NCBI RefSeq assembly: GCF_037975245.1 | Contig: NC_092579.1 | Span: 19,242,678 to 19,306,677, forward strand | From: Apostichopus japonicus | Taxonomy: Eukaryota > Echinodermata > Holothuroidea > Aspidochirotida > Stichopodidae | DNA length: 64,000 bases | Reading direction: 5' to 3' | Shown here: piece by piece, positions 3,676-62,754 of the stretch | How positions within the stretch are numbered: position 1 is the stretch's first letter | How the letters are laid out: each line of letters opens with the position of its first letter | Translations under genes and position numbers: made by a program | Notes under the pieces: model-generated | Seen by the model: the letters and a program-made list of their open reading frames with translations, nothing else | What the model was told of the DNA's origin: nothing | Database searches by the model: none

Positions 3676-6600
3676 GTTGGGATGAAGCATTCCACATCCC
3701 TAACTGACCTGGTGGTGGACACACATAGGAGGAAACATTTGGCCTATCTCCTGGCAGAGTCGGGATCCTCGACAAACTCAGATACGCCGTCTGCTCTCCC
3801 GAAACAGGTTTGTACGAAAAATAAAATAAAAACAAACATGGTCTTTTGAACGTCGGTACCAATTTAGGTATACCACATTATAAACAGAAACTTCACCAAA
3901 ACTTGAAAAAAAACCAGCAGGATTCCAACCGATGAAAATCACTTCAGGTTTTACCATATTAACTAAACAGAACCGAAACTCGAAAAACAAAGCAGGATTC
4001 CGACAGACTAAAATTAATTAGCAAAAATTCTCCAAATATCCCCAGCAGGATTACAACTGATGATAAACACACTGTAAATGTTAGATTGAAACCTTCAAGA
4101 AATTGAAGGTTTGGAAAGAAGAGTAAGTGGTGGGTGTTTTAATACCCAGAAGTAGGGTAAGTATCATCTGTGATAAATACCAAAATATGTGAAAGTTGTT
4201 TGGAGTGTTGACAGATAAATTGATGGATGAAGCTGTTAATAGAACTTGATTGGGAACATGATGACATCTTAACATATCTTACAAATATCAGGTTGGTGAA
4301 ATGTCCCAATTGTTGGTGTGCATGGACATGGAAGCAACCTCAACCTCAAGAGCATGAAATGATTCAGTGAATTGAACAACTTTTAGTTTCTCTGAAGCAA
4401 CTTTTAGTTTTATTGGTATCTAGTTTACCTAAGACAGAAGAGGAATTGTCATAAACCTAACTTACAACTGTGTATACTATAGACTGTCAACATCACAGCT
4501 GGAAGGGGGGGGGGGGGGTGGAGTGGGGTGGGGGGTGTTATCAACATGTGAAGGGGGAACCCCAAGGACACCAGTAGAATTTGTTGCTGGAGTTGACTTA
4601 ATTTAACTTCTTTAAGCGAGCTCTACTCCGCATCATTTCTCGATGGTACATATGGGATGTGATATGAAGGAAATATCGTGAGATATATTTTGTCATTTTT
4701 TTCTCTATTTTTTCTCTTGCCTCTGTCTCTTGCAGCATGTGAACAAAAGACAACTGCAGAGGAAAAGATCCTTCATTGGGACAATCTTTGGTGAGTGTTT
4801 TATTTTTAGCTTTAGGGGTTCTTGTCACCCCTTAATATGTTTAATATTCCTTTTTCCTGAGTAAGTAATGTCAACCCTACCCTCCCCCACCCTTCCCCCT
4901 ATCCCCCTTCCTCCAAATGTATAGTTCTATCTGATATCCCTTGCACATATGCTAAGGTTTCCTTTCCTTGTGTTGCATGTGTCTAATTTGCAATATCACA
5001 AATTGCAGAAAAGCTAAACAATCTGTTACATTTATAGCTGTCTTCTTCATCATATTTATCCCAATTTATTTTGTTATATTTCTGCAACATGTTTTGACAA
5101 ACATGTGTTGTTTTTTAAACTTTTGAGTGTAAAAAAATCTCAGATTATGGGTCTCTCACCACATGATTTACTTTTCAACATCAATTGTTTACATTTATTG
5201 TGCTCATTTTATGGAGTTTAGGAAACCAATGCAAAGTTTGATTTATTTTCAAAGCTTAATATATGTAATCATTTCAATTTTTAAAATGTCTTTTGCACAC
5301 GTTTGCTTTATTTTCCCTCGTGCCTTACATTCCTTGTTTATTTGTTCTTGCAGGTCCGGATGAGAACGGAGGTGATTTGAAAGCCAAGAATGTACGACAG
5401 ACAGAGCTGGTCTCCGATTTGAAAGACGCTGTTCTTCAAATTGGCAGACATTTCCAGTCAATTGACCCCAAAAATGCCAAAATTGTAAGCAAATCTTGTA
5501 TATTTCTTCAAATGTATAAACAGATAAAACTGTTCTCTGAATTAGGAGAATTTTTGTTTCTCTTGGATTTGAATTCTAGCATTTTAATTTAGTAACTGGT
5601 GAATTCATAGGCACACAATATTAAAAGGATGTGAACTAGATGGTCGGAAAACTTTTTTTGGTTTCTATCTTCTGTATTTTTGTTTTATCTCCAGAGTTTG
5701 ACTGCAGATTATTCCCTCGAGAGCCATCAGAGTGACCACGAACAGTTTGTCAACGTCTCCAGAACAAGAAGGAGAAGGGCTAAGGCTCTCTTGGATTTTG
5801 AAAGGCATGACGATGATGAACTTGGCTTCCGAAAGAATGATATCATAACAGTGAGTTGGTCGTACTTGTAATCTGCTAGGTATGAATACGATTACGAGAG
5901 AGAAAAATTATTCATATTCATATTAGTCAGGACGAGGAATTGAGCATGGGTTTTCATTTGCCACTCCTGCAAATAATGCGGTTTTAAAATGGAATAACCT
6001 TTGAAGTCCATCTGTGAACACGATTTCCAAATTGTGTGCTTCATATACAATTAAATGGATCTAGAAATATGAATTTTAGCAATATTAATGTTGCTTATGA
6101 ATTAATCTTTGTCTTCTTTTCAGATCATTTCACAGAAGGATGAACATTGTTGGGTGGGTGAAATCAATGGTTTGAGAGGTATGTTCATTTCTGATTACTG
6201 AACGTGTTCTAAAGTTAATTAAAGGGATATTCTGCAAGATGAAGTCAGTTGTTTAATATTAAAGCATGCTGGAAATTTCCTGCATCGGTGGGTCAAAAGC
6301 ACATTCTCGTATCATTTTGTGTTTTGAAGCAAAAGTTTGATAAAAATGTCAGTTTTCATTCACAAAATTACCTGTGACTTATTGAACTTTTCATTCTTTG
6401 AACAGTTGGAGGCAATAAAAGTCTTGGATGTTTCCTTAATATTAAGTTTTGTGTTGCATCTGAAGTGACTAAATGGCCTCTTATGTTAAACTAAGTAGTT
6501 GAGCCACTTTAGTCAATGAGCCTCATATATATTAAAGTGTAATTTCTCAAAGATTAAAAACGGTATCAAAATACAAGCTGGACTAATAGCAGTGTTTTAG

Positions 6601-9600
6601 AAGTCTGCCTTATATCAAAATTATGTGCCTAGAGTCCTCCTTCCTACTCTTAAAATCCTGTTCTTAACTAAGACTATTTATTTCGGTGGTTCATAATTCT
6701 CCTGCATTTTGGTAAGTATTCTACATCCTTTTTGTTGTTGTTTTTTTCTTGGTGCAATAGGCTGGTTTCCTGCAAAGTTTGTAGAGTTGTTGGATGAGAG
6801 GAGTAAACAGTATACCAGTGCAGGTGATGACAGCATCACAGAAAATATTACTGATCTGGTCAGAGGGACTCTGTGTCCAGCACTCAAGTCCATATTTGAG
6901 CATGGCCTCAGACAACCGTCCATTCTGGGAGGACCATGCCATCCCTGGCTGTTTATTGAAGAGGTAAGGAAACTTACAGATAATCTTCTTGTGCACAATT
7001 CCACAACCGCTTTCTATGTTTGTTTTTTGTGTTTTCATCCTTGGCTCTGATTGGATGGTACTACTGTGTTGTGAAAGCATTCCTGACAATCTGTTATTCT
7101 AGCAAAAGTATGACATTCCTTTAGCTGTATATGAATTTGTTTGTTATGTTCGTCAACGTTAAATACGTTTGATGATGGTAGGATTGTTGTCTGTTAAGTA
7201 GAGTTGATGTCGTTAAATTTGTTATACCAGTGGATTCTATAGTTATAAACAGTAGATTCTATAGTTATAAACAGTAGAGTTACTTTGGCAAATCCAGGAT
7301 AGATCCAAAATACAAAGAGAAAGTCAATAATTATAAAGATGAATACCAATGTCAAAAGAGTGTCTGGCCAGCAAAGTGCGTAGAAATGAAAACTTGTATT
7401 GAAAATTGCCCAGTAAAGATTTGTTCATTTCATGAGTAAATATGGGGCCAGTGTTCCATGTGGATCACTTGCTATCTTTTTCAAGTGATACACTGCGACA
7501 TTTTGTATAATTGACAAAAAAACACAAAAAGTTATGTTTAAGCCAGTTGCTACTATTCTCTTCCATTTTAAATGAACTAGTTTAATCAGAAGAATGAATT
7601 GTCTAAAAACTAGAAATGCATTACATACCTTCTTATTTCTTGATATCCAGGCAAGTGCAAAGGAGGTGGAGAGGGATTTTGAGTCAGTCTACTCCAGATT
7701 GGTATTGTGTAAGACATATCGGTACGTCAACATCGATGACTGCTTTATTTTTTTGTTAAACATCTGCTGCATTTTCTTGTCCGAGCAAATCTAGCATACT
7801 TTGTATAGTTTAATAATTCCTTACCTAAAAAGGACAAGAATTTACCTTGACTGCTACAAGCCCTGTCTGAATTTATTCTCATCCCTGACTCTGATTAGCT
7901 TATCATTAGGTGTCATGTGACCTTATCGTGGAAATTTGATATTTTTGTAAATAACTGAAATCAATGCAAGGTATTTCAGATCACAAAATGGTTACTTTTT
8001 CAATAACAGATGCTTGGGGTAATTGTGTGTGTACATGCCTGGTAAAACAACATCTTTAGGATGATATGCAATAATTCTGCTGCTGCTAGTGAACAGGGTT
8101 CACAGTGTTACTTTCAATGGAAGCTACAAAGCATACTGTACATACAAACTGAAAGTCAGTTCAGGGTTTATCTGATGAGAAAATCCTGTCGGCCTAGACC
8201 TAGTCTTTAGATTTGACCTTTGAAGATATTGAAAATATATATTATCTATTAAAAGAAATTATTGTGACATTTTAAAAAAAATACCATATCTCTGGATGAT
8301 TATTAATTTTGTTCTCCTCACACCAGACTGGATGAAGATGGTAAAGTCCTCACTCCGGAGGAGCTACTCTACAGAGCGGTGCAGGGCATAAATCAGTCAC
8401 ATGACCGAGCCCATGCCCAGATGGAGGTCAAATTAAGGTCACTGATATGTGCAGGACTCAAGTAAGTTGGCCGGACCAGACTTCCCAAATTAAAATGCAT
8501 TGTTAAATGTCAGGCTTGTTTGCTACAAGGACAGTGTTCCTACTTGTAATTACAACCAAGGGGGACTGGAGTCATGAACTCTGTGTGTGATAGTTTGCCC
8601 ATGCCTGCCATGGAACTGAATTAATCCATGGTCAAGTTTTTTATATTTTATCTGTCGGTAAAGCTTTTCATTTCTTCGTGCATCTTCATCTCACCTGCAT
8701 TATCACTTGTAAAGACAAGTTATCTATAATTCTCGTTGCCTGCCTCCACCTCTCTCTCTCTCTCTCTCTGGAAGTATTTTGACATCCTTTGAAGAGAAAC
8801 CAGTTTCTTTCGGCTCCATCTTTCACCCTCCTCGAAAGACAGAATTTTCTTGAAACTGTAATCCATAGTGACTTGAGTTTTCCTTTTAATTTCCCGTTTT
8901 GCAGTGAACAGGTCCTTCACCTGTGGCTTGAGGCTCTCTGCTCTTGCGAATCCATCGTGGAGAAGTGGTACTACCCATCGTCATTTGTCAGAAGTCCAGG
9001 GTGGGTACAGATCAAATGTGAACTTCGTGTTCTCTCAAAGTTTGCATTCAACTTGTCGACGGATTGGGAGATACCAACAAAGAAAGAGGTGAGTAGACTA
9101 TTAAAATTCCTCTTTGCAGTTTATTGAAGAGTAATTTTTTTTTATTTATGTATCTTATCCTGTGGTGTTTCTATATTCCTGTTGATAAATATCAGTTCAC
9201 CAAAATTCATTTGGGTGTTCATTGAACTAAACAGTGCTAACTCACTACATTTCATTCGTACTTATAAACTTAATATAGAACTGTATAACCTGGTAACTAT
9301 TTTTAGCATTAAGTAAAAAGTACTCAAATTCTAATATTTTCTTTATAACAAAATTTTTCACCTGTGTGTAGTAACTTCAGTGATACTGTAACTACTCAAA
9401 ATCAATTCACCTGTTTGTTAAATTCATCCAAATTCTTGTTAACTTGAATGTTTACCCACGTAAACGATTTGCTGCATATTTCCACAAATATCATAGATTT
9501 TTTTCAGAACAGTTTCTTTACAAAGTTGTGTCACTTTTATTAAAATTATTTTATGTTTTTTTGCATATTTTTGAAATAATAAGCAGTTTTTCAATTCCAT

Positions 9601-12600
9601 TAAGACAGACAAAATTTGTTTATTCCAATCAAAATGACATTCGCTGATCTGTGAGATCAAAGAAAAGTGTAAACATCATATCACCCCTTTCACTTTTTCA
9701 TGTTGTTCATTCGCATTCAATTTATTAGATATTTTCTTTAATATTGGTTTCTTAAAAAAAAGGAAAAGCTGATCGCAACAAGATGAAGCAAATTAATAAA
9801 TAAATAAATAAAGAAAGCAAAGCAAAGCAAATTCTTTGATAAATATCTTAAACAAAAAATAGTAAAAAATATGAATGCTGTTTTGCAATAGAAATGTGTT
9901 TTTGCATCCTCTGTCCAATTCATCCATCTAGAAGTTCGGTTTCATTTCTTCGAATAAGTAAACAATATTGATCTTCCCACAAGTTGTGTCGTTCAGCTAG
10001 CGTGGGACAGCTGTTGTGCAAGAATTCATTCTCTTCCCAAAGGATGCAATTCACCAATAAATTAACCTTTGATACAAGTTTATGACAATGGAGAGAAAAA
10101 AACATTAATAAAATTTGTATAAAATTGTTTCTTGTCTTCAATTAAACTACAAAATACATAATTCTTTTCCTGGAATCTGCAGTAGTTGTTTTCTTAAAAT
10201 AAAAATAAAACTACAAGAAAAATGCATGACTTTTTTATATCATATAATGCATGCTTTCATCATCTCCATGGGAGCCATCAATAAATGCATGAAACATCTC
10301 CCTCTTTTGGTCCTCTGATTGTGGTTTTCTGTAGGGCAAGTTACTGTTTGAGTACATTTGTGACATATATTCAGCAACAGATGGTAGGGTAACGTGGCAG
10401 CCTGTCTAAAAATGTGTGTGTTACAAAATGGGAAACTGCACTATATATCTTAGAGCACTATCAAACGTTTCCAAGTTACCCTGTTTCTGAATGATAAGAC
10501 ATTCAAGCAGATCTAAAAAAAAAAATCTGGAATTCTTCTTGTCTTTGAGTATCGTAAACCCTCATCAAATCTGAATTCTTGGACAAATGTTAATCTCGTG
10601 GATAGAATTCTTTGCTTTTAAATGATTTTCTGTGATAATTATCCTCAGTATATTTTATTCAGTCAGCTGCTGTTCATTAGGGCCGGATATAGCTTAGGAG
10701 CAAGGGATGGGTTGGGGGTTGGGGTGTTGTGGAGTGGGGGTTTGTGGGGTGGGGGTGACATCCTAGGGTACCCTTAGCTCACAGGGAAAACTGCTCTTAG
10801 GTAGCTAAAAGTACTGAAATGGGTCAGGATTAATTACGATTAGCTAGAAAAGAAAAGAATTCAACTTTAAGTAGGCGGATAGAACAAGTCCAATTTGAAA
10901 CAGTTACCGATGTTACTGAAAACCTCAAGCTGAAAGTTGTGACAAAGTCAGAACTTGTTGGCACTAACATTTGATACAAAAGGAACAAAATTCTAGACCA
11001 AAAATTGAATATTCAAATAGTGCTTCCTCCTCTCTGTACCCACCTCTCTGTCTCCCCACATCTCTGTACCCCCCCCCCACTTAAATTATAGGAAATGACA
11101 AGAAACACAAGAGATATTTAAAAGAAAAAAAAAACATTAGAGAATCAGAGGCGTAGGTTGGTTCTGAGATCACAATGCCAGTCGATTCAGATTCTGAAGA
11201 TATCTGGACAGAACTTTGTAATTTTTACATGATCGGCTTTGTGTCAAGTGCAGTTCAGATGAGTAGGGGTTTTCGGTCCCAACTCTCACTCTTGAATTGA
11301 GGACATCCGAAGCAATTTACAGCTACCCCACTTCAGATAATCAATGTGATTGCCAATGTACTGAAAGCAACTTAGATTAGGTCAGAAATTTTGACTCCCC
11401 CCCTCCCCCCCCAAAAACAAAATGTTTTCAGATAATTATTTGAAAACCGTCACTTTTGTCCAACATCTGTGACTTTCTTAAAAGAACAATTAGACTTTAT
11501 AATTTCATTTTTCTGTTAATGGAATCTCTTTCTTATTTGGTTTGCCCTCCCCCCCCCCCCCATTCTCTGACTGGCATGCCCGTTGACTGAATCGATCATT
11601 TCATTTCTCTATTTGCACCAGGGCAAAGCTTCTCTTAAAGATAGCGTCCAGGACATGCTTATCAAACACCATCTATTCAGCTGGGATCTCTGAACATGAA
11701 ACACTGCTGCTACTACTACTACTACTACTATCCTACTCTTTGCTTGTCATTCTATGTGTCCATAGTGTCGGTAGTGATGCTGCAGACACTATGTACAGTC
11801 AGAGGTGGAGGCAAAACCCATATTTTCGAGGATAAACACATCATCTTTTCTCCTCTGGGAAGTCGTCATGTAGACTTTTTATATATGGTTCTGGAATGCT
11901 GACAATTTTACACCTATGGTGAAGGGTATAACATTTCTTCTAAGTAATATTTGTTCATGTTGATATCATTGTGATATCAAGGTTATGCATAATTCATATG
12001 GTGACATTATGGTTGCGTAATTATGGTGGCGTGCTGTTGAAATGATGATAGCACCATGTGACTTTAAATGATTACATCGTGGTGATTCGTCTCTCATGGC
12101 AAATGGCGTGATGACATGATCTAATGATAGTGTCATGGCTACATTGCCATCATGTCAGAAATGGTATGATGGTTTGAGTAGCGGTGAGACCACGGTGACA
12201 TCGCGGTTGTGACATGGTGACATGACTTAGTCACTTTGGTAAAATCATGGTGACATAGTGATGTCACAGTGATGTCATGGTGACATGACTAAGTCACTTT
12301 GATGTATTGGTGGTATCACTATACCATGATAGTAGAATCATGGTGACATCATAGTTATGTCATGGTGATGTTATGGTGACATGACTAAGTCACTTTCATG
12401 TACTGGTGGTATCACTATACCATGATGGTAGCATCACGGTGACATCATAGTTATCTCATGGTGATGTCATGGTGACATGACTAAGTCACTTGATATATTG
12501 GTGGTATCTCCATACCATGGTGACATCATAGTGACACGGTTCTTCATGATGATGTTATGGTGACATGACTCAGTCACTTTGATGTATTAGTGGTATCACT

Positions 12601-15600
12601 ATACCATGATGGTAGCATGGTTTGTCATGGTGACGTGACTGAATCCCTGTGCCATCTTGGTACCATCACCATACCGTGATGGTTTCATCATGGTGACATG
12701 ACTATGGTGACATGATATAATCATGACACCAAGGTACCATCATGGTGGGATGTTGGCATGGTGGTTTTATCTCATTTAACATATTGTTCTTGAATGCATT
12801 TGGATATATTAAATACACCATAATTTTATTGTCATCTGTGTATAATATAGGTGGCGGACTATGATATTATTTAACATTCATGAATCACAACAAGCTCCTT
12901 CATCTTTGAAGTACTGAGCAGGTGGCGGGTAGATGTAATGCGTTGTATATTGCCAGTCGATGCTACATGGCCCATTTAAAAATACAAATTTGTTTGAAAA
13001 AACAATTGCAGCTTTGGACTTTGCACAAACTCTTTGTAAAATTCTCAAGCAACTGTAAGAATGAATTTTTAAGTCAAATTAAGGGAGAAAATTAAATACT
13101 TAATGAAGTTAAGAAACGAAACTAGAAGACATGGTCCACCTGGACAAGAAAACCTTTCCCACGGGGGTTGTTTCTAATAACTTTGGCAAAATTGATAATT
13201 TACGAAAAAGACTTTCAACATCTACAGGGAAATTATTTATTTAGATTATTTATTAACTATTTATTGATTTACTGTGCAATCTGTGTCATCAGAGAATTAA
13301 CCATAACAACAAAAATATATAAAAAACTTGGCATTTGTTCAATTAGAATAAAAATAATAACAATAATAATCATAATAATTTATGCATTTTTAAAATGCCG
13401 AAATCCAGAACAATTAACTGTTCACGGTGTTGAACAATGAAAACAAGAGCTGAGAAGATGAGCCTTGAAGTTACAATTATTTTATTTACAGTGGAGACTG
13501 GCAAATTATTTGTGGGAATAAAGTTAATAGTTGGTGAAAAACTATAAGTTATGTTATTAAAAGGTATGCAAGTGTCTGTTATGTATTCAAAAAAATATGG
13601 TTCAATGAATTACCTCTAATAACAAAGTTTGATTGATTTGAGGTCAAAGGTCAGTTTAGAATTACAGGTTCACACGGTAGCAATCTTTCTTTTATCCTAA
13701 AAGATCGTTTATCTGCAGATTCTCCAAAATTGTTTCATTCTCATCACAAGACTGATGTTATGAAATTTGTGTATAAAGTATTGTTGTTAAGAACACAAAA
13801 TGAATTTTCTTATGTTTGGCTTTTGACAATTCAATGTAGTGATTTGTTTATTGCTTTACAAGTCTGGTTTTATTCTCAAATGCAATTTCATTTTTTAGCT
13901 TTACAATTCAGTAAAAAAGGAAGTTAGCCCGTAGCAACTGTGCACCGTGCACATGCCTACATGCAGTTGTACAGCCTCTGTGTGCATTTTATTTAGATTG
14001 CAATGTAACAATGTCTTTGGTCATGTGATAGTCACATGTTAATCCTAATTTCTCTTGTCTCATCAAACTTTCAAGTATAATCTATTATAAAACAGTACAT
14101 ATGATTACTTTAAAACCTTGGTTATATTCCGAAATCTATTTATCTTTTAACTTTTAGAAAACCAAGACGTGATAGTTACTGCTTATCCAATTCTTTCAAA
14201 TTTAGTGCAATTTAACATTGATTGTGTGTTAGTTTCTCATCTATTTATTTCAAAATGATTCCCGATAAAAGAGATCGACATGTTTTGGCATGTTTGTAAG
14301 TATTCGAAAAATCGTTTTCAGAATTAAGGTTTAACGGAGCAAAATATTCATTCTACCCTTGCTTTATTCAGGGGTATAACAGGCAGGTGTTGTAAGAAAT
14401 CTTGTGGGGGGGTTGTTGGGTTTTGATCTCATATGTACTTTTCTTATGATTTGTTGGTTATACTCCCATGTCTGAGGGAATGGTGGTCCTAATTCTATGA
14501 GTGCAAAGTGCCGCAGATTCTAGTTAAAATTCTAGTTGATTCTAGTTGAGGGTTAGATTGAACATCTCCACTGATGTGTCAGCTTTTGTGCATTCCTCAA
14601 AAAATCTAATATAGCAACGAAAAATGTATGTTTTGTTTTGGGTCCTTCAGAGGTCTGCGTTTGACGAGGGTGGGGGTGGGGGGATAAATGAACCCATTTC
14701 TTTAATAGTTTTGTTTAGTTTTCCTAAGAGAAAAAAAATGAACGATGTTAGCATACTGTAAATGTACTTTTCCTCCTATTTTACAAAAACTTCTGTCATA
14801 GGACAAATATATGTTTTTTTTGGGGTGATTCTGTGATTTCTGTCATAGTTGTTTGGTCTTTTTTGCATGACTCGTAAATTTGATTAATATCCCTAAGGTC
14901 TGCTTGAAAGCATTAGAACAGTAGTGTTTATCTTTAATATAAAGACCTTTTTGGGTCATATTTGTCATTATTATCAAATTCTTCAAAAATATGCACAAGT
15001 TAATGATGCAATAAGGGAGATTTGGTCCAATACAATAATGCTTTAAGTTAGAAACTATAGTTTAAAAAATAACAATACTGAACAGGAAACTTAATTGATG
15101 TATTTTATAGACAGAATAGTAATTTGTGTGCCTAAATGAATTCTACCACAGATGGTTTATTCTAATCAAGTTTTGCATTTTAATTGAAACACTTGATTTT
15201 GACCATTTTATCAAAGTAATATGGTTCAAAATATGGGCTATGACAATTTGATATTTAAAAGGATGAATTTAGGTCACAAAATAATTCATTTTGATATTTT
15301 GTAGATCGATGAGAAAGCACTCCCAGTTGGTCCAGGCTGTGTTTCTATAATGCTATAATTTGATATGGAATTTGAATATTTTCAACTGAAAATGGAATAA
15401 TTTATTATTACCTATATAAACATCTAGAAGGGTTTCTTAATTTGTGTCATCTGCACTGAACTTAATTGTTTTATGTGACATTTGGTAGGTTTGGTCAAAC
15501 TTTGTCAATATTCTCGGCCAAGAGCAAACAACCATGAATCAGATGTCTTAATGATCATTCAATATTGTCCCCAATATATTCCAGAAAGTCAGATAACAGC

Positions 15601-18449
15601 TCACCCATGCTCAAGTTTCAAACTTGAGCATGGGTGAGCAATTTTACTGCCATTCCCTCAATTATCAACAGTACTGTGATATTTAATTGTCTATTCTAGC
15701 AATCCAAAATGCCTGAGAATAGATTTGAAGACCAGGACATTCAAGGAAAGTACTTTTGAAACCTACTAGCAATTTTTAGTGTAGTGTGCTAAAGTTGGAG
15801 GTCAACACTAATGACCTTTGACCCCATGACATCAGCGCTTCTGAGGGAAGCACCTGTGCTAGCATAATGCTTAAATTATTTTATGGTCAAGTACTTCTAG
15901 ATCTGACATTGGAAGAACAATATATAAAATAAAACTTAGGAATATTATCTTATTCATACAGCATTTGCAAGGTTCCAGATCTCTTTAAATATTTATTCTG
16001 AAATACAAAACCTTGATTGTACTCTTTTTCTTCTTCATTTTCCTGGTTTTTGTGCAATTACTTACATCTTTCCACCTTTTTTGTGTGTAATTCAGTCTCT
16101 AAAATTTCTGCCTAAATCTACATCATTCACAATTTTTTGTGTATTCACTTTTATTGTCATTTATATGTATTTATTGTTTTCTTCATCTTATTTTTGTTGT
16201 CTTTAAACCATCTTAAACATATCAAATATTTCACAATTTCAGGTTCTTTCCGGTAGATTAAGATTCTGTTAATTTATCATAACTCTATGACAACCAACTT
16301 GCTAGCATAAGAAAGAACTATGAATTAAAAGTACAAAAATACATGCAAATATTGAACGTTTGTAGAAGTTACATATATAAATACTCAAAACAGTCATTTA
16401 GCTCAACATGCAGCTTATGCAAATCCTGTTGCAAAATGTTTATCAATGTTGCAATAGCTGTTGCTGTTAAAGATTATTGTACAGCGTCTTCTTTTTGTTT
16501 TTGAAATTTAAATAATAATTTAATCTTAAGTTCAGATAAATGGTGTAATTACAATATTACAAAAGGGAAGGGGCGTGAAGGAGTGGGGAGGGGTGTAGCA
16601 TGATCGCATTTCGACATAATAGTACTGGCAATTTAATAAACTTAACAAAGGATATTTCTTAGTGAAAATTTGATGATATCCATTGTTCCTCAGTGCTTTT
16701 TTGATTGTTGTGTAATTTACAAAAAAGTGCAATATTAAGTTTAAAGGCTTTCATGTCAAATCCACAAACAAAGTGAAATATTTATTTGAGTCTATCTTTT
16801 GGGTAATGAAGGGATAGGAAGAAATTAGAACAGCTGAGGACAGATTTCACAGATATCGTTGAAATAAAACGTCTCTTGTTTTTCATTGTCTAATCTATCT
16901 TATCTTCAAATGTCACTATTCTCTGAGTTTATTTGATAAAGAACATTCTCTCGAGAAAAACAGACCATTCTCTTGTGCCAAAAAAAAAACACTGGTATGT
17001 TACTACAATTTACTAAAGTTGCTGTATTAATTTGTTCAGGAAAGTACATGACCATCTAATTTATGGCAAGAATTTAAGAGAGGAAAATAGAATAACATAA
17101 TTAAAAACAAAAGAGGAATGAAGCAAACAGAAAAGTATTCATATGAGTATAAATTGTTACTATGAAGTTAGCTGTGTGTAGTTTAAAATATACTTAAGAA
17201 ACTGTTAAGTATATTTCACGGTGTTATTATTCATTTGATGAAAAGAAATACATTTTTTTTTATTACTTTAAGATTTTAACTTTTGTCTGTAGCTAGATAA
17301 TTTGATTGTATTTGGTTGGCAGAAGAAGTCAACAGATGGATAAGATAACAAAATTAGTTACTGACAACAAGACCCAGTTGTATATGGTAGGACGCTATCT
17401 ATAAATTGTATGAATGATTTGACCTGAACAAAATGGTCTTAAATTCAGTCGCAAATTAATGATGTAATAGAGAATAAATATATATTAAGTTTGAGATTTC
17501 ATCTCAAAATCAGTTCGTTTATTTCTATTTTTTTTATAGTGTTACCAGGGGTGGGACTATTGGTGTTAACAGCTGTTCTCCAGGATAGGAAGGGAGAGAG
17601 AGGGGAAGGGAGAGGTGAAGGGAGGTGAGAGAGGTGAAGGGAGGTGAGAGAGAGAGGAGAAGGGGGGGGGGGTAGAAGAGAGGGAATGTGAGGTCTTGTT
17701 TCAGACAGGCATATGTAGTTTGTCTCTTGAAACACCTAAAGAATTCTTGAAAAAAGGCTTGATTGCATGGGAAGAACTTTGGGAGTCTAGGGGAGGGAGT
17801 GGAAGGGGTTGATAGATATGGGGAGAGAGTTGATAGTTTGGAAAGAGTAATGCAAAGAGAGACCCCATTTTAGGAGGCATATTTGTGATGTTGGGAGACA
17901 GTGTCGATTCAGAGTGACTGGTCCATCTTTGTCATCAGTTATGGTTTAAGATATATTGTAGCTAACTGCTGATGATGCTGGTAGTAAAGCAAATGTCATT
18001 TCTTCGTGCTGTGCTACTGATCCATCAGACAAGAATGCTTGGCCACCCTGTAAAGAGAACCAGTTAAAAAAGAGTGAAAGAGTAGGGCGGGGAGGGGGTG
18101 GGGGTGGAGTGATCAACATAATGAACAGGGACGAAATCAATCTTGATACATTATGAATGTTACTTTATCAAACTCACAGTAAGGTCAGCAAGAATACTTT
18201 ATAAGAAAAGTCACCCAAGGTAGATCATGGGAACAAAAACCAATCAACTTTGTTATCTCTCAACCCCAATCGTCTTACATCGAGACTGAAACCGTATGAA
18301 GATGATGATTATTTATTCACTTCTATCAAAATGACTTTAATATTTAACCTGTATGCTGTTCCTTATTTTTCCCCCAGGGTGGTCCACTACTGAAGCAGTG
18401 TGTCCAGGACCTTCTAGTCACACATCACTTATTCAGCTGGGAATTATAG
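3676..18449 (+). CDS. SGSM3: SGSM3, small G protein signaling modulator 3 (3' part, spliced)
   Basis: SGSM3 (RUTBC3) is a cytoplasmic TBC-SH3-RUN protein that modulates Rab and Rap GTPases. Visible coding exons: 3676-3807, 4736-4790, 5354-5484, 5695-5850, 6124-6178, 6761-6963, 7651-7721, 8327-8461, 8905-9088, then 11622-11693 or 18378-18449. All have AG/GT borders and compatible phases, giving 397 codons plus stop with either end. Counting from the first visible codon, residues 1-44 (with HRRKHLAYL) are the stretch just after the TBC domain. The SH3 domain spans about 135-190 (AKALLDF at its start, [11 protein letters not shown] at its end). The RUN domain runs from about 200 to 370 ([59 protein letters not shown]). 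The N-terminus and TBC domain lie before the window. Identification rests on near-continuous similarity to vertebrate SGSM3 as I know it. Confidence 0.93.
9089..11621 (+). other. SGSM3 intron before the proximal terminal exon
   Basis: Donor GTGAGT at 9089. AT-rich, with G-rich and C-rich runs at about 10700-10760, 11065-11080, 11395-11412 and 11549-11561. No further exon recognised. Confidence 0.6.
11622..11693 (+). CDS. SGSM3: SGSM3 terminal exon, proximal copy
   Basis: A terminal exon that joins in phase 0 to the exon ending at 9088. The acceptor is a pyrimidine-rich tract ending CACCAG at 11621. It encodes 23 residues ([20 protein letters not shown] then WDL) and stops with TGA at 11691-11693. 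Vertebrate SGSM3 also ends in a DML-x-KHHLFSWD motif, so this is a plausible native C-terminus. An (ACT)n microsatellite starts about 15 bp after the stop, and a long minisatellite follows. A candidate AATAAA lies far downstream at 13517-13522. It is homologous to the exon at 18378-18449. Confidence 0.85.
   Translation, partial: GKASLKDSVQDMLIKHHLFSWDL
11705..11732. repeat. (ACT)n microsatellite
   Basis: Uninterrupted CTA/TAC trinucleotides, about eight units, in the presumed 3' UTR of the proximal SGSM3 terminal exon. Confidence 0.85.
12040..12770. repeat. Degenerate minisatellite, about 95-bp period, GTGACATCATGG-rich
   Basis: The motif CATGGTGACATGACTAAGTCAC recurs in slightly altered form near 12215, 12278, 12374, 12470, 12558 and 12627, spaced roughly 60-96 bp apart. 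Between copies runs TGGTGGTATCACTATACCATG and related sequence. It lies between the two SGSM3 terminal exons. The edges fade gradually, so the limits are approximate. Confidence 0.8.
12771..18377 (+). other. Intron between the two SGSM3 terminal exons, distal part
   Basis: AT-rich, without recognised exons. It holds a perfect inverted repeat (15599-15639), given separately, and a purine-rich low-complexity stretch at 17585-17690. No convincing coding exon was seen on either strand. Confidence 0.5.
15599..15639. repeat. Perfect 20-bp inverted repeat with 1-nt spacer
   Basis: Arms 15599-15618 and 15620-15639 are exact reverse complements (left arm starts GCTCACCCATGC, right arm ends GCATGGGTGAGC). 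The single central base is C at 15619. It would form a 20-bp stem in RNA or a cruciform in DNA. Confidence 0.97.
18378..18449 (+). CDS. SGSM3: SGSM3 terminal exon, distal copy
   Basis: The second terminal exon, exactly as long as the proximal one (72 nt, 23 residues plus TAG), and also phase 0 after the exon ending at 9088. The acceptor is strong (TTTTTCCCCCAG at 18366-18377). The peptide [20 protein letters not shown] then WEL matches the proximal copy at 14 of 23 positions, including VQD, HHLFSW and the final Leu. A 3' UTR of about 700 bp follows, with AATAAA at 19142-19147. Both copies keep splice signals, frame and motif, which argues that both are used as alternative last exons. Confidence 0.85.
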   Translation, partial: GGPLLKQCVQDLLVTHHLFSWEL

Positions 18450-19165
18450 AACTGGCTCGACAAGTATTGATGTCACAATTTGAAAGAACCTATATCTATT
18501 ATATTAAAGGGCAGTAAAGATGAGAGGCCTTCAACAGTTATTTACTCACAAATGCCAAAAAAAGGAAGAAACATATCGCACATCATCTAAGTTTTACACA
18601 GTTCGTATTTTATGGGCTTTATGTCTTTACTTGTATGTTAATTAATAGTGAAGTTAGTTTGAAGATGAGAAATGCTTGAAAGAAGTTGCCTAAAGAGATT
18701 GTAATAAGTTTTGTTTATGAGTTATAGACTTTGTATAGGACTTAATGGAGAAGAGAATTCAATCGATTAGAGGGCGCTAGTCAAGAAATAACGAGGATGA
18801 TGTTGCCAGTACACAAAATTAGATAGGATCAGTCACAGTGGACCACGAAATCGGTTAATGCTTTTTTTTTTCCTCTCGTTATTCGATGAAAGAGCGATAA
18901 CTTTCATATAAAAAGGATCGCAATTGGTATTTTAGTATATAGTATTAACAAGTGCAATACTTTTATGTACATATTTATCTAGTTCTCAAAAAACAAAACA
19001 TGTTTTTACTAGTTAAGTAATAATGACTTAAAACCCCACCGGTGTATTTTTCGTTTCTCACTAATTAATTACAAGACTGATTGTTGCATGCTATCATTTC
19101 TACTGTCAGTTGATGGTTTTCAATTTCCTATGATTTTCCTGAATAAATTGAAGCAAAAACAAAAC
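18450..19165 (+). other. SGSM3 distal 3' UTR with polyadenylation signal
   Basis: AT-rich sequence after the distal stop codon. No reading frame of note. The hexamer AATAAA at 19142-19147 is the first convincing polyadenylation signal; cleavage would be expected 10-30 bp later. The end point is inferred. Confidence 0.5.
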
Positions 19166-19757
19166 TAGCAGACATTGTTTGGAGCAAATTACCAAAGGGA
19201 AGAGATTGATCAATGTACGTGATAGAGTCGCTCAAGCCTAAGGCCTACAATAATTATTGGTCGATGCCGTAGAGATAAATGTCGTGAAGAATAACTTTCC
19301 AAAGTTGTTGAGAAAAAAATCTTATTTCAATTCGTAGATATCACATATTTAATGTTCCTTCATACAGAAGACTTGATGAAGTTTAAATATAACATCATTG
19401 AACCACATGCTTAAGTTTGTTTTGTTCAGTCCTTGATTTATTAGAATGTTTATTTTCTCGGACGGAGATGGGTTTTCAAAGCACTTAACATGACCCGAGT
19501 ATGATATATTAAGTTTAAGTGTCAACACTGTTAACATTCTACCTTGAAAAATATGAAGAAAAAAACAAATAGAGAAAAGGTAAAAATAATTCAGATCCTA
19601 ATGACACCATGACATCATAGATTTAAAAAGAAAATGACAACTACCAGATACGTTTTTGAACATAATCAACTAACATATCTCCCAAACAGAACAAGAAGCT
19701 GTATAGGGAGAGTTGAACTGTAGATGATGGCTGGGTTTGTGTCCCATTAAGGGTCGA
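19166..19757. other. Intergenic sequence
   Basis: AT-rich DNA between the SGSM3 3' end and the foldback element. Nothing recognised. Confidence 0.4.
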
Positions 19758-19765
19758 TAGAAAGC

Positions 19766-20727
19766 AGGTCACTTCGCCCAACTGCCATTTCGCCCAACCA
19801 GCCTGGTCATTTCGCCCAACCAGCCTGGTCATTTCGCCCAACCAGCCTGGTCATTTCCCCCAACCTTGATTAAATATGATACTTAAAAAGGAAACGTTGG
19901 GGAAATTGTTAACGTTACAGGATACGAAACGAATATTAAGGAAACTTGAGGATGGATCATTGCTATAGGGGTTAGGTTTGATAGTAAACGTTCGAATATT
20001 AAGGAATATTAAGGAAACTTGAAGTCCTTTACTTTGTATAACTTTAGTAAGGAAACGTTCAGGAATTTTTAACGTTACAGGATACGAACCGAATATTAAC
20101 CCCTTAAACACTGATCCATCCTACTGACTAACAATTCCCGAACGTTTCATTATTAAATTGAAAAAAAAAATTAAAATATAAAACCCGTCCGTAATATTGA
20201 AGTACTATATTTAATCAATGTAACCACGTTATCAATATAACCACATATGTAATCACATATGTAATCAATTTAACCACGACTTCAAGTTTCCCTAATATTC
20301 GGTTCGTATCCCGTAACGTTAACAATTCCCGAACGTTTACTATCAAACCTAACCCCTTAAACACTGATCCATCCTCAAGATTCCTTAAGGTTAAATAGGT
20401 TTTTATGAAGACCGATTCCCTTGTGTTTGTATAACATTAGATTAACACTATGTAGAACTAGATAAACCCAAAGGATGAATAAAAATCAAATTGAACTAGT
20501 GGAATAGCAAAAGTAATATTATTCTGACTGAATATTAGTAAAAAAAAAGTTGGGCGAAATGACCAACACGGTTGGGCGAAATGACCATGCTGGTTGGGCG
20601 AAATGACTATGATGGTTGGGCAAAATGACCATGCTGGTTGGGTGAAATGACCAGGCTGGTTGGGCGAAATGACTAGGCTGGTTGGGCGAAATGGCAGTTG
20701 GGCGAAATGGTTGTTGGGCGAAGTGAC
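19766..20727. mobile_element. Foldback-type DNA element with satellite-like termini and 8-bp target duplication
   Basis: The left end carries head-to-tail units of about 22 bp (CATTTCGCCCAACCAGCCTG) from 19770 to 19865. The right end carries the same units inverted, more copies of them, from 20540 to 20725. Further inside, 19895-20115 and 20278-20385 are also inverted copies of each other (GTAACGTTACAGGATACG-type sequence). TAGAAAGC flanks the whole on both sides (19758-19765 and 20728-20735), as expected for an 8-bp target duplication. There is no transposase frame, so it is non-autonomous. The 8-bp duplication would fit a hAT-type integrase, which is inference. Confidence 0.82.
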
Positions 20728-26493: not shown

Positions 26494-28295
26494 TGCCTGA
26501 TTCCAACAAATTCAAAGTTCGCCTTGTGAACCACCAAAATTAAGGCAAAAGATCTGTCCTCTTCTGGACAGACATTCTGTGAAAGGAATGGAATTATAGG
26601 TTCAGGTCAAGACTGCTGGTGACCGATTTGCACTGTATGCTCTGTAAAATTGGCTATAGAATGTCTCTGTTCCTACCCTGAAGATCATTTCAAGGAGAAG
26701 TTAACATTCCATATCTTTCAGTCACCTTAAGATCTTTCAACCACTTGTTCTAAACCTGATCCAGCTTCATTAGAGACATCCAAGACTCACAAGTTTACTT
26801 TCATTTTCTCTTCTTCTTCTTTTATATTCTTCTTTCACCTGAGACAGTAATTATAAAGATAAGATTTCATATATTGGAAAGCAGATAGCCATCGCATCTA
26901 GACTCATTTTTATACACTCCCTTCCTCCCCCTCCTCCTGACTACCTAAACAACCCCTGACTGCTGCCTTATTGATATAACTATGTATTAACAAATGTATA
27001 TCATTGTGGTTTCGTAATGGCAGAAATAAACAAAATGAATACCATAGCTTAAATATATCTGTGTTACTATAATAAACTGCATACCAAAACAGAAGCACCA
27101 CTGAAAGCTACAATATCTCAGACCCAGTCCAGCAGGATGTTACAGTCACAGTTCATGGAGTCTTCTTGTGAATCAGTGTGGCCCATGCAATGCTGTAAAT
27201 ACAAACATGAAAGCAACGTGTGTATATATATACCCATGGTGTGAAATAAAATTTCAGTAATTGTTTTACATAAAATCATCTCCCAGCTTGCATACATGCA
27301 GATACCTTTTCCGATGAATGTTTACAAACATGAATAAACTGTACCTCTTTTTGTTACTAAGTATTTCATAAAATGCCGAAACTTCCTTTGATGAACATTG
27401 TTCACTATCATGGTCAAGCCAATAGTAAGGAATGAATGCAATACAAATTGAGAACATCTCATCAGCCAAACAATTTTGAGAGCATGTACCAGTTTAATAC
27501 TAATGAAATAAACATCATTCTTGAAACGAGAAACTTGACAAGTGAAATAAGGACCGACACTTAAGCTACAACCTGTACACTTAGCAAAGATGTAAACTGG
27601 CTTTTCAGCCTACAAAAGTACCAACAACATATTGGTATATTCATGGTAACCCTCATGTGCTTCCATGACTTCTAGCACCTGTGTAATAATATTCTACATC
27701 AACAAGGACAGAGATACTGTATAGTGTACTGTACTTGTCTCTCAATACTCTTAAATTGTGTTTACCATGGATTTTGTTCCTCAAAACTTTCAAATTAAAA
27801 ACCAAGTTTAAGACAATGACTCAACAATGAGAGGTCAACTTAGCAAAGTTTGAACTTGGTTTATAATAATCGAAGTTTCAGTGAAACAGTTCTGCCTACC
27901 ATAAAATCACACCTTATAGGCATCAAAAGAAGTCTATGATCTAATAAATATCTTACTTAAGCCGAGAGTTGGACCAATATTGTTAAGCCTAGCTTCAGGT
28001 CAAAACTATGCTAGTTGATCAAATAAATACATGGATGTATTAAGTTAGTTGCCTACGCTACGCTAGGTAATATCAGCTTGCATGGAGAGTTTTCTCCATA
28101 TTTGAACCATCACCAACATCACTTAGACTGCAGAGCTAGGCCCAATTGCTTGAGAATTTCATATTACAAAGTACCATTGCTTGTATAAGTAGCCTAGGAT
28201 AGGCTAGTTCGTCACCATCTCTATCTAGCCTGCCCTTTGGTAAGCTAACCTAGGTTTTCCGATTTCATTTCATGGTAGGCCTAGCTTGAGGCCTT
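26494..28295. other. Intergenic or intron
   Basis: No gene recognised. A short minus-strand stretch at 27121-27196 has an acceptor-like border but encodes nothing I recognise. TAGGCCTA-like words become common from about 28000. Confidence 0.35.
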
Positions 28296-31804: not shown

Positions 31805-32350
31805 ATCTCAGTGGCGCCCTTTTCAGCTATTTACCACTTTTAACTCATTCGCGATTATTGATTATTGACTTTTTTATTGCGCTCTCATCTACCTATTGAC
31901 ATTTGTCACATTTTGTTGGCGATGAAACCTATTTATTCTTCGTTTATCAGCAAATTAGCAAGGCCCGGAAATGGTCATTTCCGGCGATCTAGGGAGTATC
32001 TTTACTCAAAAAAATTCTGTACGCTCCGCGCCAACCTGTGGTGGCGCTCCGCTTAGATGTATGTATGTATGTATATGTGATCTTCCCGCAAGCAGGAACT
32101 CGCGAAAGAAGCCATGGAGGCTTATAGACTCGCAAGCTGACCGAAGCCAATCTCTCGGCACACATCCATTTAACGTCCATGTCGGGAAGTTGTTATTGAA
32201 CAACACCCTTGCCAGACGACACACATTGCTGTCGGCGGGAATCGACGGGAATAGATAAAGTCGAATAGATAAAGTCGAATAGATAAAGTCGAAAGCGCCC
32301 ATTCAGACCATTCCCGCCCCCTCTGACCAATACCCCTAGCTCCGCCACTG
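31805..32350 (+). mobile_element. Decayed hAT-like MITE of the CAGTGGCGGAGC family, copy A
   Basis: The left end is lost: homology starts inside the element at CCCTTTTCAGCTATTTACCAC. The right terminus CTAGCTCCGCCACTG is intact at 32336-32350. Relative to the copy at 33851 it carries about 210 bp of extra sequence at roughly 32056-32270, ending in a tandem AATAGATAAAGTCG repeat. It contains the shared core module at 31965-32060. Confidence 0.75.
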
Positions 32351-33850: not shown

Positions 33851-34217
33851 GAGCGTCCATACAGTCAGGGGCGGATGCCCCCCCCCCTCCCCCGACGGAT
33901 TCAAATGGACTGCTGGTGCCCTTTTCAGCTATTTACCACATTTAACTCATTTGCGATTATTGAATTTTTTATTGCGCTCTCATCTACCTATTGACATTTG
34001 TCACATTTTGTTGGCGATGACACCTATTTATTCTTCGTTTGTCAGCAAATTAGCAAGGCCCGGAAAGGGTCATTTCCGGCGATCTGGGGAGTATCTTTAC
34101 TCCAAAAGATTCTGTACGCTCCGCGACAACCAGTGATGGCGCTCCGCTTAGATAAAGTCGAAAGCGCCCATACAGACCATTCTCGCCCCCTCTGACCAAT
34201 ACCCCTAGCTCCACTAC
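33851..34217 (+). mobile_element. hAT-like MITE of the CAGTGGCGGAGC family, copy B
   Basis: Sequence from GAGCGTCCATACAGTCAGGG to CCCCTAGCTCCACTACAG is collinear with the complete copy at 52477-52854. Both termini have decayed and no target duplication is legible. The core module is at 34055-34150. Confidence 0.8.
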
Positions 34218-34289
34218 AGCATAAATGTTTTCGTGGAAATGGTAACCTTTATAGTCATACAGGTGGTGTGTGTGATGCATTGCTTGTAA

Positions 34290-36115
34290 AAACGATCTCA
34301 AGAATGGAAAATTGGACCAATTTTATAATTGGTGTGTAGGAATACCACATTGAGTAGAAGAACCCTATCATTGTTTACTGGTGGGTCAATTGTCATTTGG
34401 GGTCACCAGAGGTCAAATTGTGAAAACATGTAAACACGATATCTCATGAAGGAAAGCTTGGACTAATCTCATATTAAGTACGTAGTTGTGACACGTTAAG
34501 TTCAAGCCCCTTATTATTTTTGGTGGAGATCAAAGGTCATTTGGCATTACCAGCTAGGGGTCAAATTGTGGTAATCTTGTTATACTTGGCATGTGCATTG
34601 ATCATATAGAGAAGAAGTTAACTGTTTAACGTGGAGGTTAAAGGTAATCTGAGGTCACCAGATGTCAAACACTGAAAACCTTGTAAACACTATATCTCAA
34701 GGGCATGAGGTTAGTTCCAAGGTATTTCGACAACACAGCTAGTTGACCTCTAACGTCATTTCCGTTTAAGATTTGCTGATCGTATTGTGGAGTTTTTGGA
34801 TGTGTTGGGGATAGAGATGAAGATGCTAGTTACTTTTAGAGCATTGTTAAATCGAAATGCATAAAATCAAGTCAACAAATGATGGTAAACGAAGCACTCA
34901 GTGTGCGGTACTGTTTGCATCATTAAGGTAAGCGAAACCCTCAGATCTAGGCCCTAGGTAAAGATGGTACACGAAACACTCAGTTTGCTGTATCAGGTGT
35001 TTGAATCACTGTGTCTGTGCTGTGGTAAGTGAAACACCCTGCATGGAACTCCAAGTGTTTGAATCACTGTCCTGGTACTAAGTGAAAACCCTAAGAATGC
35101 AATACCAAGTTTTGCTGTCGAAACACCATGAAACTAGCCTCAACTAGCTGTGTTGTCGAAACACCTTGACACTAACCTCAGTGAAACCCTCAGAATGTAA
35201 TACCAAGTCATCTTTCATTCACTTCCCATGCTCCATTCATCTCCCATTCTTTATTCCTCAACCTGCCCCATTAATCTACCTTACCCAATTCATCTAACAC
35301 ACCATTCACATACCTCCATTCATTCATCTACTAACCCCACCCACCTTTTGCCATCCACTGATCTACCAAATATACTTCTAACCATTTAGTCAGTCCAACC
35401 ATAATTACAACCTTTACCCACTCTATCTCACTTCAACACACCCAGCCTTTACTTTAGTCTGACAGAAGTTTCTAAAAGAAACATGCTCAACTTTTTCTCC
35501 ATAGACACCAAATAATCTACTTGCAAAAAACTAATACAGGTCACTGGAGGTCAACCTGAGGTTAAAGGTGCTATTCCAAGGACATCTGACGTCAAATCCT
35601 CTGAAGACAAATACATTGAAACCAATATTTTTGAAGTTGATATTTGGTACGTAGGTTGCTTGTAGTAGGTACCACAAGTCTTTTGTGTAGATTCATGGTC
35701 ACTTGAGGTGAAGAGATCTTGAATGGTGAGAACTTTGTAAACATGTTAACTTGATAGGACAAATCCCTGTGAAGTTCTTAGTTGGTGTGCATGTAGATTG
35801 CTTATAGTAGTAAATATGAGAAGCATATTGATGAGAAGTTACTGTTTTTTTACCTCTTGATGGCACAAGCTAGTAGTTTTTTACCAGTGCATATTTAATA
35901 TTTTGGTTTTTGGCCTCTGACCTTTGGTGACCTTCACAGGCACCAAAAACAATAGGGCACACCTTCCCACTATGGCGTATCTACATATCAAGTTTGAGTT
36001 TAGTCCGACTTTCCCTTGTTGAGTTACAGTGTACCCAAGCAAGTGGCACAGACACACATAAACACACGCCAACCTGACTACATAGGTTCCTTTGCTAAAG
36101 CAAGGAACCAAACAT
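34290..36115. repeat. Cluster of degenerate dispersed repeats (GGTCA-type)
   Basis: Repeated variants of GGTCATTTGGGGTCACCAGAGGTCAAA and TTGTAAACACTATATCTCA occur at 34390-34690 and 35530-35770. Spaced variants of GTAAGTGAAACACTCAG occur at 34885-35190. A C/A/T-rich CATTCATCTACC stretch runs from 35215 to 35360. The cluster ends near 36110 with a short self-complementary stretch, GGTTCCTTTGCTAAAGCAAGGAACC. The type is common in marine deuterostome genomes, from memory. Confidence 0.55.
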
Positions 36116-38053: not shown

Positions 38054-50066
<12,013 letters not shown>

Positions 50067-50331: not shown

Positions 50332-51904
50332 GTCGTAGCCAGTGTTCGATTTTTCCGGTATCGCATCGCAAAATGCGATCCAAAACGACAAACTTGCGAG
50401 ACGTTTCCAAATCAGCATCGCACATTGTGCCGATTTGTGCGATACAAATTCCTAGTCAGATTTGGGAGCAAACACTCAAACCTTAACTTACGAACTTCTA
50501 CTCAATGTAGAAGTTATAATTTATTGAGTTTACACTCAATGTACAACTTATTCACTTGATCGTATAGCGAAAAAAAAAACCTGAAAAAATAATATCCTAC
50601 CATAGTTAAGTGTAAAGCAAATAGCCTAACCACCTCGGCGGTTACGGATCTCACGTAACTAAAAGGTTCCCTGGCAACGTGCCAAAAAATGTTAACAAAC
50701 AGGTGTTACACAGGGGATGAGCTCACAGTTGTTGGGAAGGTACCTGGGCAAATTCGCAGCACATGTACCGTGGTACAGTAGTTGGGTATAGGGTTAAACA
50801 CTGCAGTTGTAAAAATGTACGCATAGTGCACGCTATTCATTGTTAGGCAGTCTAGAAACGGGGCTTTGCTGAACGTTGTTTGTTTCATAATATCGGAAGT
50901 TTTCTAAGTTGCACTTTTTAAAGATTGAAAGACAGATTAAATCTCTTTTCATTTTATAACATAATATAGCTACTTTAACTTGTCATTTTGAAATTTTCAT
51001 CAGTTTCGTGACAATTTAAATAAAAAAAGTTGTCAGTATTTTGCATCCTCAACTGCGAATTTTTTCATCGCCAGACATCGCAAAAAATGACAACAATTTT
51101 CGGGGGCTTTCGCCCCCAGGTTCCCCACGAGGGTTCTACCCCATGACCCCACCATAGCCCTAAGACGGGCCCCTGGACACCACGCCTTTATGCTCGCACG
51201 TTACGCGTGCTAGGCAGGCGAACACCGGCGGGAAATCGGCAGTGTGTTCGCGGGAAGTTGAACAAGGTTTTCCAACACTGCTGAACTGTGCAGTTACTGT
51301 ATGCATCATGTTCAAGGTTTTCACGGAGGCCTTTGAGGAAATGAATGGTTAGCAGGTGCGTATCCAGGGGGGGGGCGTTGGGGGCGCGCGCCCCCCGGGT
51401 AAGAAAAAGAGGAGAGAAAAAAAAGAGAAGAAAAAAGAGGGGAAAAAAGAGGGGAAAAAAGAGGAGGAGAGGAAGGAAGGGAAAAGAAAAAGAAGAAAGA
51501 GAGAAAAAGGAGAAAAGGAGGGAGTAAAAGAAAAACGCGAAGACACCGGGGAGAGGAAGAGGAACAGTGACATCATTACAGCGCTGAAGGGTAGCCAGTG
51601 ACGGATCAATGATTTCGTAAAAGTGTGACTCACCCTACCCCTTACACCGACAACTCCATTTTTTGACGTTTCCATTTTCCTCTCTCACTAATGATCTATA
51701 TATGTACTATATATGGTCTATCATAACGCGTGTGTAGAATTGTGCTATGAAACCAACTGTGGCTGGTCTCGAACTCGACCGTGTCGTCGGGGAACATGAC
51801 GCATTTTGGGATGGGGGCGACCGCCCGCCCCCCCCCCATTCAGCATTTTTTTAAATGATATCGCTAAGTAATTTCAAAACAGAAAGTGCTTAGAGGCAAC
51901 TTAG

Positions 51905-52082
51905 AAGGCCTGGGAAGTGTCATTTCCAGCGATCTGGGAGACATTTTCGGCCAAAATTTGCTTGTACGCTTCGCGCTAACAAATGGTCCTGGGTAGTGCC
52001 ATTTCCAGCGATCTGGGAGGCATTTTCGGCCAAAATTTTCTTGTACGCTTCGCGCCAACCTATGGTGGCGCTACGCTTAGAT
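51905..52082 (+). repeat. Two tandem copies of the shared ~95-bp core module
   Basis: The first copy (51905-51985) runs from a GGCCTGGGAAGTGTCATTTCC-like start to CGCGCTAACAAATGGT, where it breaks off. The second (51986-52082) is complete to CGCTACGCTTAGAT. Both sit in the middle nested element. Each carries the GTACGCTTCGCG and CCAGCGATCTGGGAG blocks. Confidence 0.85.
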
Positions 52083-52476
52083 AATTTGCCTACAGGCTTC
52101 GCCCCTCCCTTGGCAAATTCCTCGCTACGCGCCTGTTCGAATTTGTAACGCAAACAGCAGATATCACATCATATCAGTGAGCATGAAAATGGCGTTCCAG
52201 GATGAAAAGCCTCAAAACTGTCCGACTTGCCTGAAAAAATAACCAAAAATTTTCGCGCGCACGTCTTCATGTCAATATCATATAAGCAAGCATCGGTTAT
52301 TACATCGCATGCCATCATGTACCGTACGGTCCGTTCAAATTGCGCAGTATTTCGCGGGATGCTAATGTAAACAACGACATGTCTCATGTAGATGTATAAA
52401 AAGCATGGAGGTCCAATTATGTCAAAACTCTCTTTTACATTAGTAATGGCGAATTAGGGGCTGCACCCCCGCCGCG

Positions 52477-62746: not shown

Positions 62747-62754
62747 ATTCAAGG

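Follow-up and report, generated by a model that had tools for sequence, protein, structure and literature searches.

The locus raises a simple question: does the SGSM3 gene in the 64 kb stretch of DNA analysed here (the window) have one last coding exon or two, and, if two, are both likely to serve? The earlier note on this DNA had described a pair of homologous terminal exons and read them as an ancient duplication that gives the protein two C-termini. The evidence set out below makes it quite likely, judging from the sequence, that the last coding exon of SGSM3 was duplicated in place long ago and that the two copies have been maintained ever since as functional alternative last exons.

The SGSM3 gene

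The coding exons upstream of the two candidate ends, with the evidence on which each was placed, are as follows.

3676-3807, + strand, most upstream SGSM3 coding exon placed here (others may precede it); splice sites, in-frame join
4736-4790, + strand, SGSM3 coding exon; splice sites, in-frame join
5354-5484, + strand, SGSM3 coding exon; splice sites, in-frame join
5695-5850, + strand, SGSM3 coding exon, first part of SH3; tblastn with a human probe, splice sites, Pfam, PDB match
6124-6178, + strand, SGSM3 coding exon, SH3; tblastn with a human probe, splice sites, Pfam, PDB match
6761-6963, + strand, SGSM3 coding exon spanning the SH3 end and the RUN start; tblastn with a human probe, splice sites, Pfam, PDB match
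7651-7721, + strand, SGSM3 coding exon, RUN; tblastn with a human probe, splice sites, Pfam
8327-8461, + strand, SGSM3 coding exon, RUN; tblastn with a human probe, splice sites, Pfam
8905-9088, + strand, penultimate SGSM3 coding exon, end of RUN, with the common phase-0 donor GAG/GTGAGT; donor score 12.2, Pfam

These nine exons, from 3676 to 9088, joined into a single open frame of 374 codons. The best PDB match of the SH3 part (query residues 3-69) was 2yuo (E 6.9e-38), entitled 'RUN and TBC1 domain containing 3', which we take to be an alias of SGSM3, and the second match was far behind (E 3.8e-15). Pfam recognised SH3_1 in the joined protein (E 9.8e-12) and, C-terminal to it, RUN (E 1.9e-33; residues 213-366 of 397), whichever tail was attached. 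With these SH3 and RUN matches the assignment of the sequence to SGSM3, presumably the gene also called MAP, RUTBC3 and CIP85, is well supported. The N-terminal TBC domain of SGSM3 would be expected before position 3676, where the window starts or further out. The tail encoded by the last exon comprises residues 375-397, just past the end of the Pfam RUN model at residue 366. When RUN plus tail A was compared with PDB by sequence, two weak matches were obtained (E 0.018 and 0.044), both stopping short of the tail; solved RUN domains are thus too distant for the tail to be placed on them by sequence.

Two homologous terminal exons

Two candidate last exons, here called A and B, follow the common donor.

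11622-11693, + strand, exon A, terminal, 23 residues and a stop (TGA); translation, tblastn, acceptor rank 10 of 553 AGs
18378-18449, + strand, exon B, terminal, 23 residues and a stop (TAG); translation, tblastn, acceptor rank 1 of 553 AGs

The description of SGSM3 as a gene with two end exons of the same length was confirmed: A and B are each 72 nt long and both close with HHLFSW[DE]L and a stop; both are in phase 0, as claimed, being preceded by CAG and in frame with the donor after GAG at 9088; and the separation given as 6.7 kb is 6756 nt from start to start. The translations agree at 14 of 23 residues, the figure reported before, and the underlying DNA at 44 of 72 bases. Residue differences fall at positions 2, 3, 4, 7, 8, 12, 14, 15 (K/T) and 22 (D/E). 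Five of the nine lie within the first eight residues, where the tails had been said mainly to differ along with position 15, and the four beyond residue 8 are M/L, I/V, K/T and D/E. Both tails have kept a core, VQD-L--HHLFSW-L, around a variable lead-in and a variable residue 15, and their translations contain three Lys and three Asp in tail A and one Lys, one Asp and one Glu in tail B.

A tblastn search of the whole window with tail A found B at E 2.65e-07, and the best match to A within 11694-20377 covered 15 of 24 positions (stop included), against a maximum of 9 of 24 in 60 mononucleotide shuffles; on these two results the likeness is not due to chance. A possible third copy of the tail at 28174-28224 was rejected as a chance match (E 0.11 with tail B and 0.13 with the human tail in tblastn, with in-frame stops).

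Splice sites were scored from the sequence only, with approximate weights. Acceptor B (13.2) was the best of the 553 AGs between 9.1 and 19 kb and acceptor A (7.7) the tenth. Acceptor A scores no lower than is usual for this gene, whose nine other acceptors span 3.5 to 11.0, and at least eight AGs besides B, without known role, score as high as A or higher. The common donor at 9088 (12.2) is the top one among the nine SGSM3 donors scored, with A 2.5 kb and B 9.3 kb past it.

Pairing between RNA segments was assessed by five crude duplex tests on 300-nt stretches in one species, each against 100 shuffles. In these tests no unusual pairing was detected between the donor side and the region upstream of A (46 of 100 shuffles equally good) or upstream of B (53 of 100), and two further combinations were ordinary (62 and 12 of 100 shuffles as good). 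The fifth combination, the flanks of A (11322-11621 with 11694-11993), was matched by none of its 100 shuffles. This pairing across A may only reflect C-runs and G-rich words, and it was given no weight because it involves neither B nor the donor and is one of five tests.

History of the duplication and selection on both copies

The 28 base differences between A and B are distributed as 9, 4 and 15 over codon positions 1, 2 and 3. By the NG86 method dN was 0.31 over all 23 codons, with dS not computable, while the last 15 codons yielded dN 0.17 and dS 1.59, synonymous sites being near saturation; two other estimators returned no value. Neutral simulations, with an equal number and type of changes scattered at random (200,000 runs from each exon), left at least 14 identical residues in a fraction of 0.00012 (from A) or 0.00047 (from B) of the runs and produced at least 15 third-position changes in about 0.004 of them, and the frame and stop outlasted 28 changes in 15% (from A) or 11% (from B). 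The selection test covers no more than 24 codons, a small number, and the identity test is inflated since the pair was noticed through its protein likeness, an effect that touches the third-position test to a lesser degree.

A search for signs that a larger block had been duplicated found none. The likeness of A and B ends at the exon edges: their upstream flanks scored 28 (mean 29.6 and maximum 40 in 30 mononucleotide shuffles) and their downstream flanks 30 (mean 27.3, maximum 33, likewise in 30 shuffles), and for none of the nine other SGSM3 exons was a second copy found in the window (next-best matches at E 0.15 or worse). On this sequence evidence the event is old and either duplicated only the last exon or has lost the traces in its flanks to decay, and both copies appear to have been under protein-sequence selection for much of the time since. 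The proposed ancient duplication of an exon, with preservation of both frames, is well supported by the homology, splice-site, codon-position and single-exon-copy results in the window. Pattern scans for relatives in IMG/VR viral contigs (two scans) and GTDB contigs (one) matched 4, 5 and 34 stretches, among which no relative was confirmed; these collections are without animals and none was expected.

The 3' ends and the probable use of the two exons

The following features lie downstream of the two stops.

11831, + strand, GATAAA variant after A; hexamer scan
12181-12189, + strand, strong donor-like site GCG/GTGAGA (exon end would be 12183); score 9.1
12808-12813, + strand, first ATTAAA after A, a candidate poly(A) signal indistinguishable from chance; hexamer scan
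13347, + strand, first AATAAA after A; hexamer scan
18503-18508, + strand, first ATTAAA after B, a candidate poly(A) signal indistinguishable from chance; hexamer scan
19142, + strand, first AATAAA after B; hexamer scan

Counts of AATAAA and ATTAAA combined were 11 for the 6.7 kb that follow A (about 12 by an estimate from composition) and six for the 2.4 kb that follow B (about four by the same estimate), and at this roughly chance density after both exons the hexamers are uninformative on separate 3' ends. Two repeats were also observed in these regions. Downstream of A, window positions 12182-12751 hold a tandem array whose 96-nt unit abounds in GTGACAT and ATGGTGA (array 12237-12615; repeat family D3 from 12182). 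Downstream of B, inverted repeats at 19770-20709 have 101-nt arms that are 92% complementary and 738 nt apart, with 22-nt tandem units inside, and resemble a foldback or MITE-type element.

The two exons have the anatomy of alternative last exons, with the same phase, the same length, mutual homology, a stop in each and an acceptor consensus before each. The spliceosome would join the donor at 9088 either to A, yielding tail A, or, skipping A, to B, yielding tail B; because a stop codon ends each exon, each protein would carry one tail only. Both isoforms would keep SH3 and RUN and would differ in the 23-residue tail. We infer that A and B are both used in transcripts, that a poly(A) site follows each of them and that the choice is regulated, possibly as a race in which early use of A and polyadenylation there compete with later use of B and its stronger acceptor.

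A different view places A inside the transcript: instead of a true last exon it would be an internal exon with a stop (about 11622-12183) that is spliced to B. Transcripts would then end at the 3' end of B, either with tail A translated and B as 3' UTR or with nonsense-mediated decay lowering SGSM3 output. The donor-like site at 12183 agrees with this, being one of three among the 669 GTs in 9.1-20 kb to score 9 or more and outscoring seven of the nine SGSM3 donors, as do the unconvincing poly(A) signals after A and the 490 nt from the stop of A to the junction, which would lie beyond the usual distance for nonsense-mediated decay. However, A shows protein-tail constraint in its coding sequence, something that a switch acting purely through decay could do without, the splice weights are approximate, and the 12183 site stands at the edge of a repeat tract where GGTGA words are common, which lowers its weight; we regard this arrangement as unlikely.

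It is very unlikely that either A or B is a relic, an old duplicate once in service and no longer spliced. If splicing of a 72-nt exon had ceased not long ago, the exon could still appear sound, but the frames, stops and acceptors of both have remained intact despite near-saturated synonymous sites, and only the minority of neutral runs given above (15% and 11%) preserved frame and stop. Assigning B to another gene, or to a second, incomplete SGSM3 on the + strand, would make use of the room for another transcription unit in the 6.7 kb past A; it is scarcely credible when a repeat occurrence was seen for none of the nine other SGSM3 exons in the window and the human probe found none besides the tail (matches with E below 1). 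Overall, A and B are a real, well-supported and, from their sequence, probably functional pair of alternative last exons.

Comparison with known systems

Homologous alternative last exons are a known arrangement, seen in capping protein beta and in tropomyosin (the terminal exons of the latter are homologous to each other), and SGSM3 is a new example. Vertebrate SGSM3 is known with a single tail that carries such a motif. The gene described here resembles it in having SH3 followed by RUN and a tail with this motif, and differs from it in encoding two tails rather than the one known in vertebrates. Over 19 aligned residues of the human tail, A matches 14 and B 12; the core VQD-L--HHLFSW-L is largely common to all three and the human tail is somewhat closer to A. 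No SGSM3 coding match was found after B in the window with the human probe, and a non-coding 3' exon may lie there.

In human capping protein beta, homologous exons at the 3' end are reported to go with multiple poly(A) sites (PMC3228551); like the present locus, that gene has two homologous last exons for two C-termini. SGSM3 differs in being another gene, with the exons in another protein region, and here the poly(A) sites and the use of the exons are inferred. In Tropomyosin 1, the choice between terminal exons 9a-9b and 9d is described as varying by tissue and stage in long reads, with PTBP1 named as a regulator (PMC8419188). As would be the case for SGSM3, the transcripts there differ at the 3' end and at the end of the coding sequence according to the terminal exon chosen; unlike the choice proposed for SGSM3, that of tropomyosin is documented by long reads and has a named regulator. 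Drosophila pip is cited for duplicated terminal exons, its eight clusters being an example from untranslated regions, and PGRP-LC for 3' variable regions governed by competing RNA structures (PMC9013439). Both resemble the SGSM3 locus in their tandem duplicated terminal regions and in the mutually exclusive choice that is proposed here; of competing structures like those of PGRP-LC, our crude duplex test found no sign between the 9088 donor and the A or B side.

The pair does not belong with strict internal mutually exclusive exons, which as described in PMC3228551 need surrounding exons, since A and B both end in a stop; in PMC5740500, terminal candidates are likewise handled separately from internal mutually exclusive exons. 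Among the open-access matches listed, no title or abstract opening mentions duplicated last exons in SGSM3.

Possible function of the tails

If both exons are used, the gene makes two SGSM3 proteins that are identical up to the extreme C-terminus beside RUN, which marks out as functional a short tail that the Pfam RUN model leaves uncovered and supplies a natural variant pair for binding tests as well as a cue for searching other animals. Merlin and small G proteins of the RAP type are reported as binding partners of the SGSM3 RUN domain (PMC11725557), and we hypothesise that a tail adjoining RUN could tune the binding of such partners. A bolder and rather doubtful suggestion is that the two tails form a regulated switch of RUN partner, merlin-type or RAP-type, that is common to distant animal lineages and that vertebrates lost or never had, with one RabGAP-type adaptor giving two tissue-specific outputs. 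In people, SGSM3 is a proposed candidate gene for intellectual disability (PMC11725557), which lends the function of the tail some wider interest.

Other features of the window

No Rfam family matched the window at the gathering threshold. On the - strand, ORF translations at 45793-49657 include an RS-type stretch and a proline-rich stretch, and the pieces look like what we assume to be a U2AF2 (U2AF65) gene; Pfam gave no match above the cut-off for three of these pieces, and one further piece with a recognised motif lies outside the three. A single open frame of 485 codons at 59232-60689 on the + strand contains two EamA transporter stretches (Pfam, E 5.7e-24) and an N-terminal repeat of the unit INSNEDVIAETA, and is presumably SLC35G-like. 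Related translations recur on both strands at 32006-32302, 34050-34322, 51894-52168 and 62687-63204 (such as SKRSATIGWR, VALRLDS and SGAPPSVGAERT), a recurrence that suggests a dispersed repeat.
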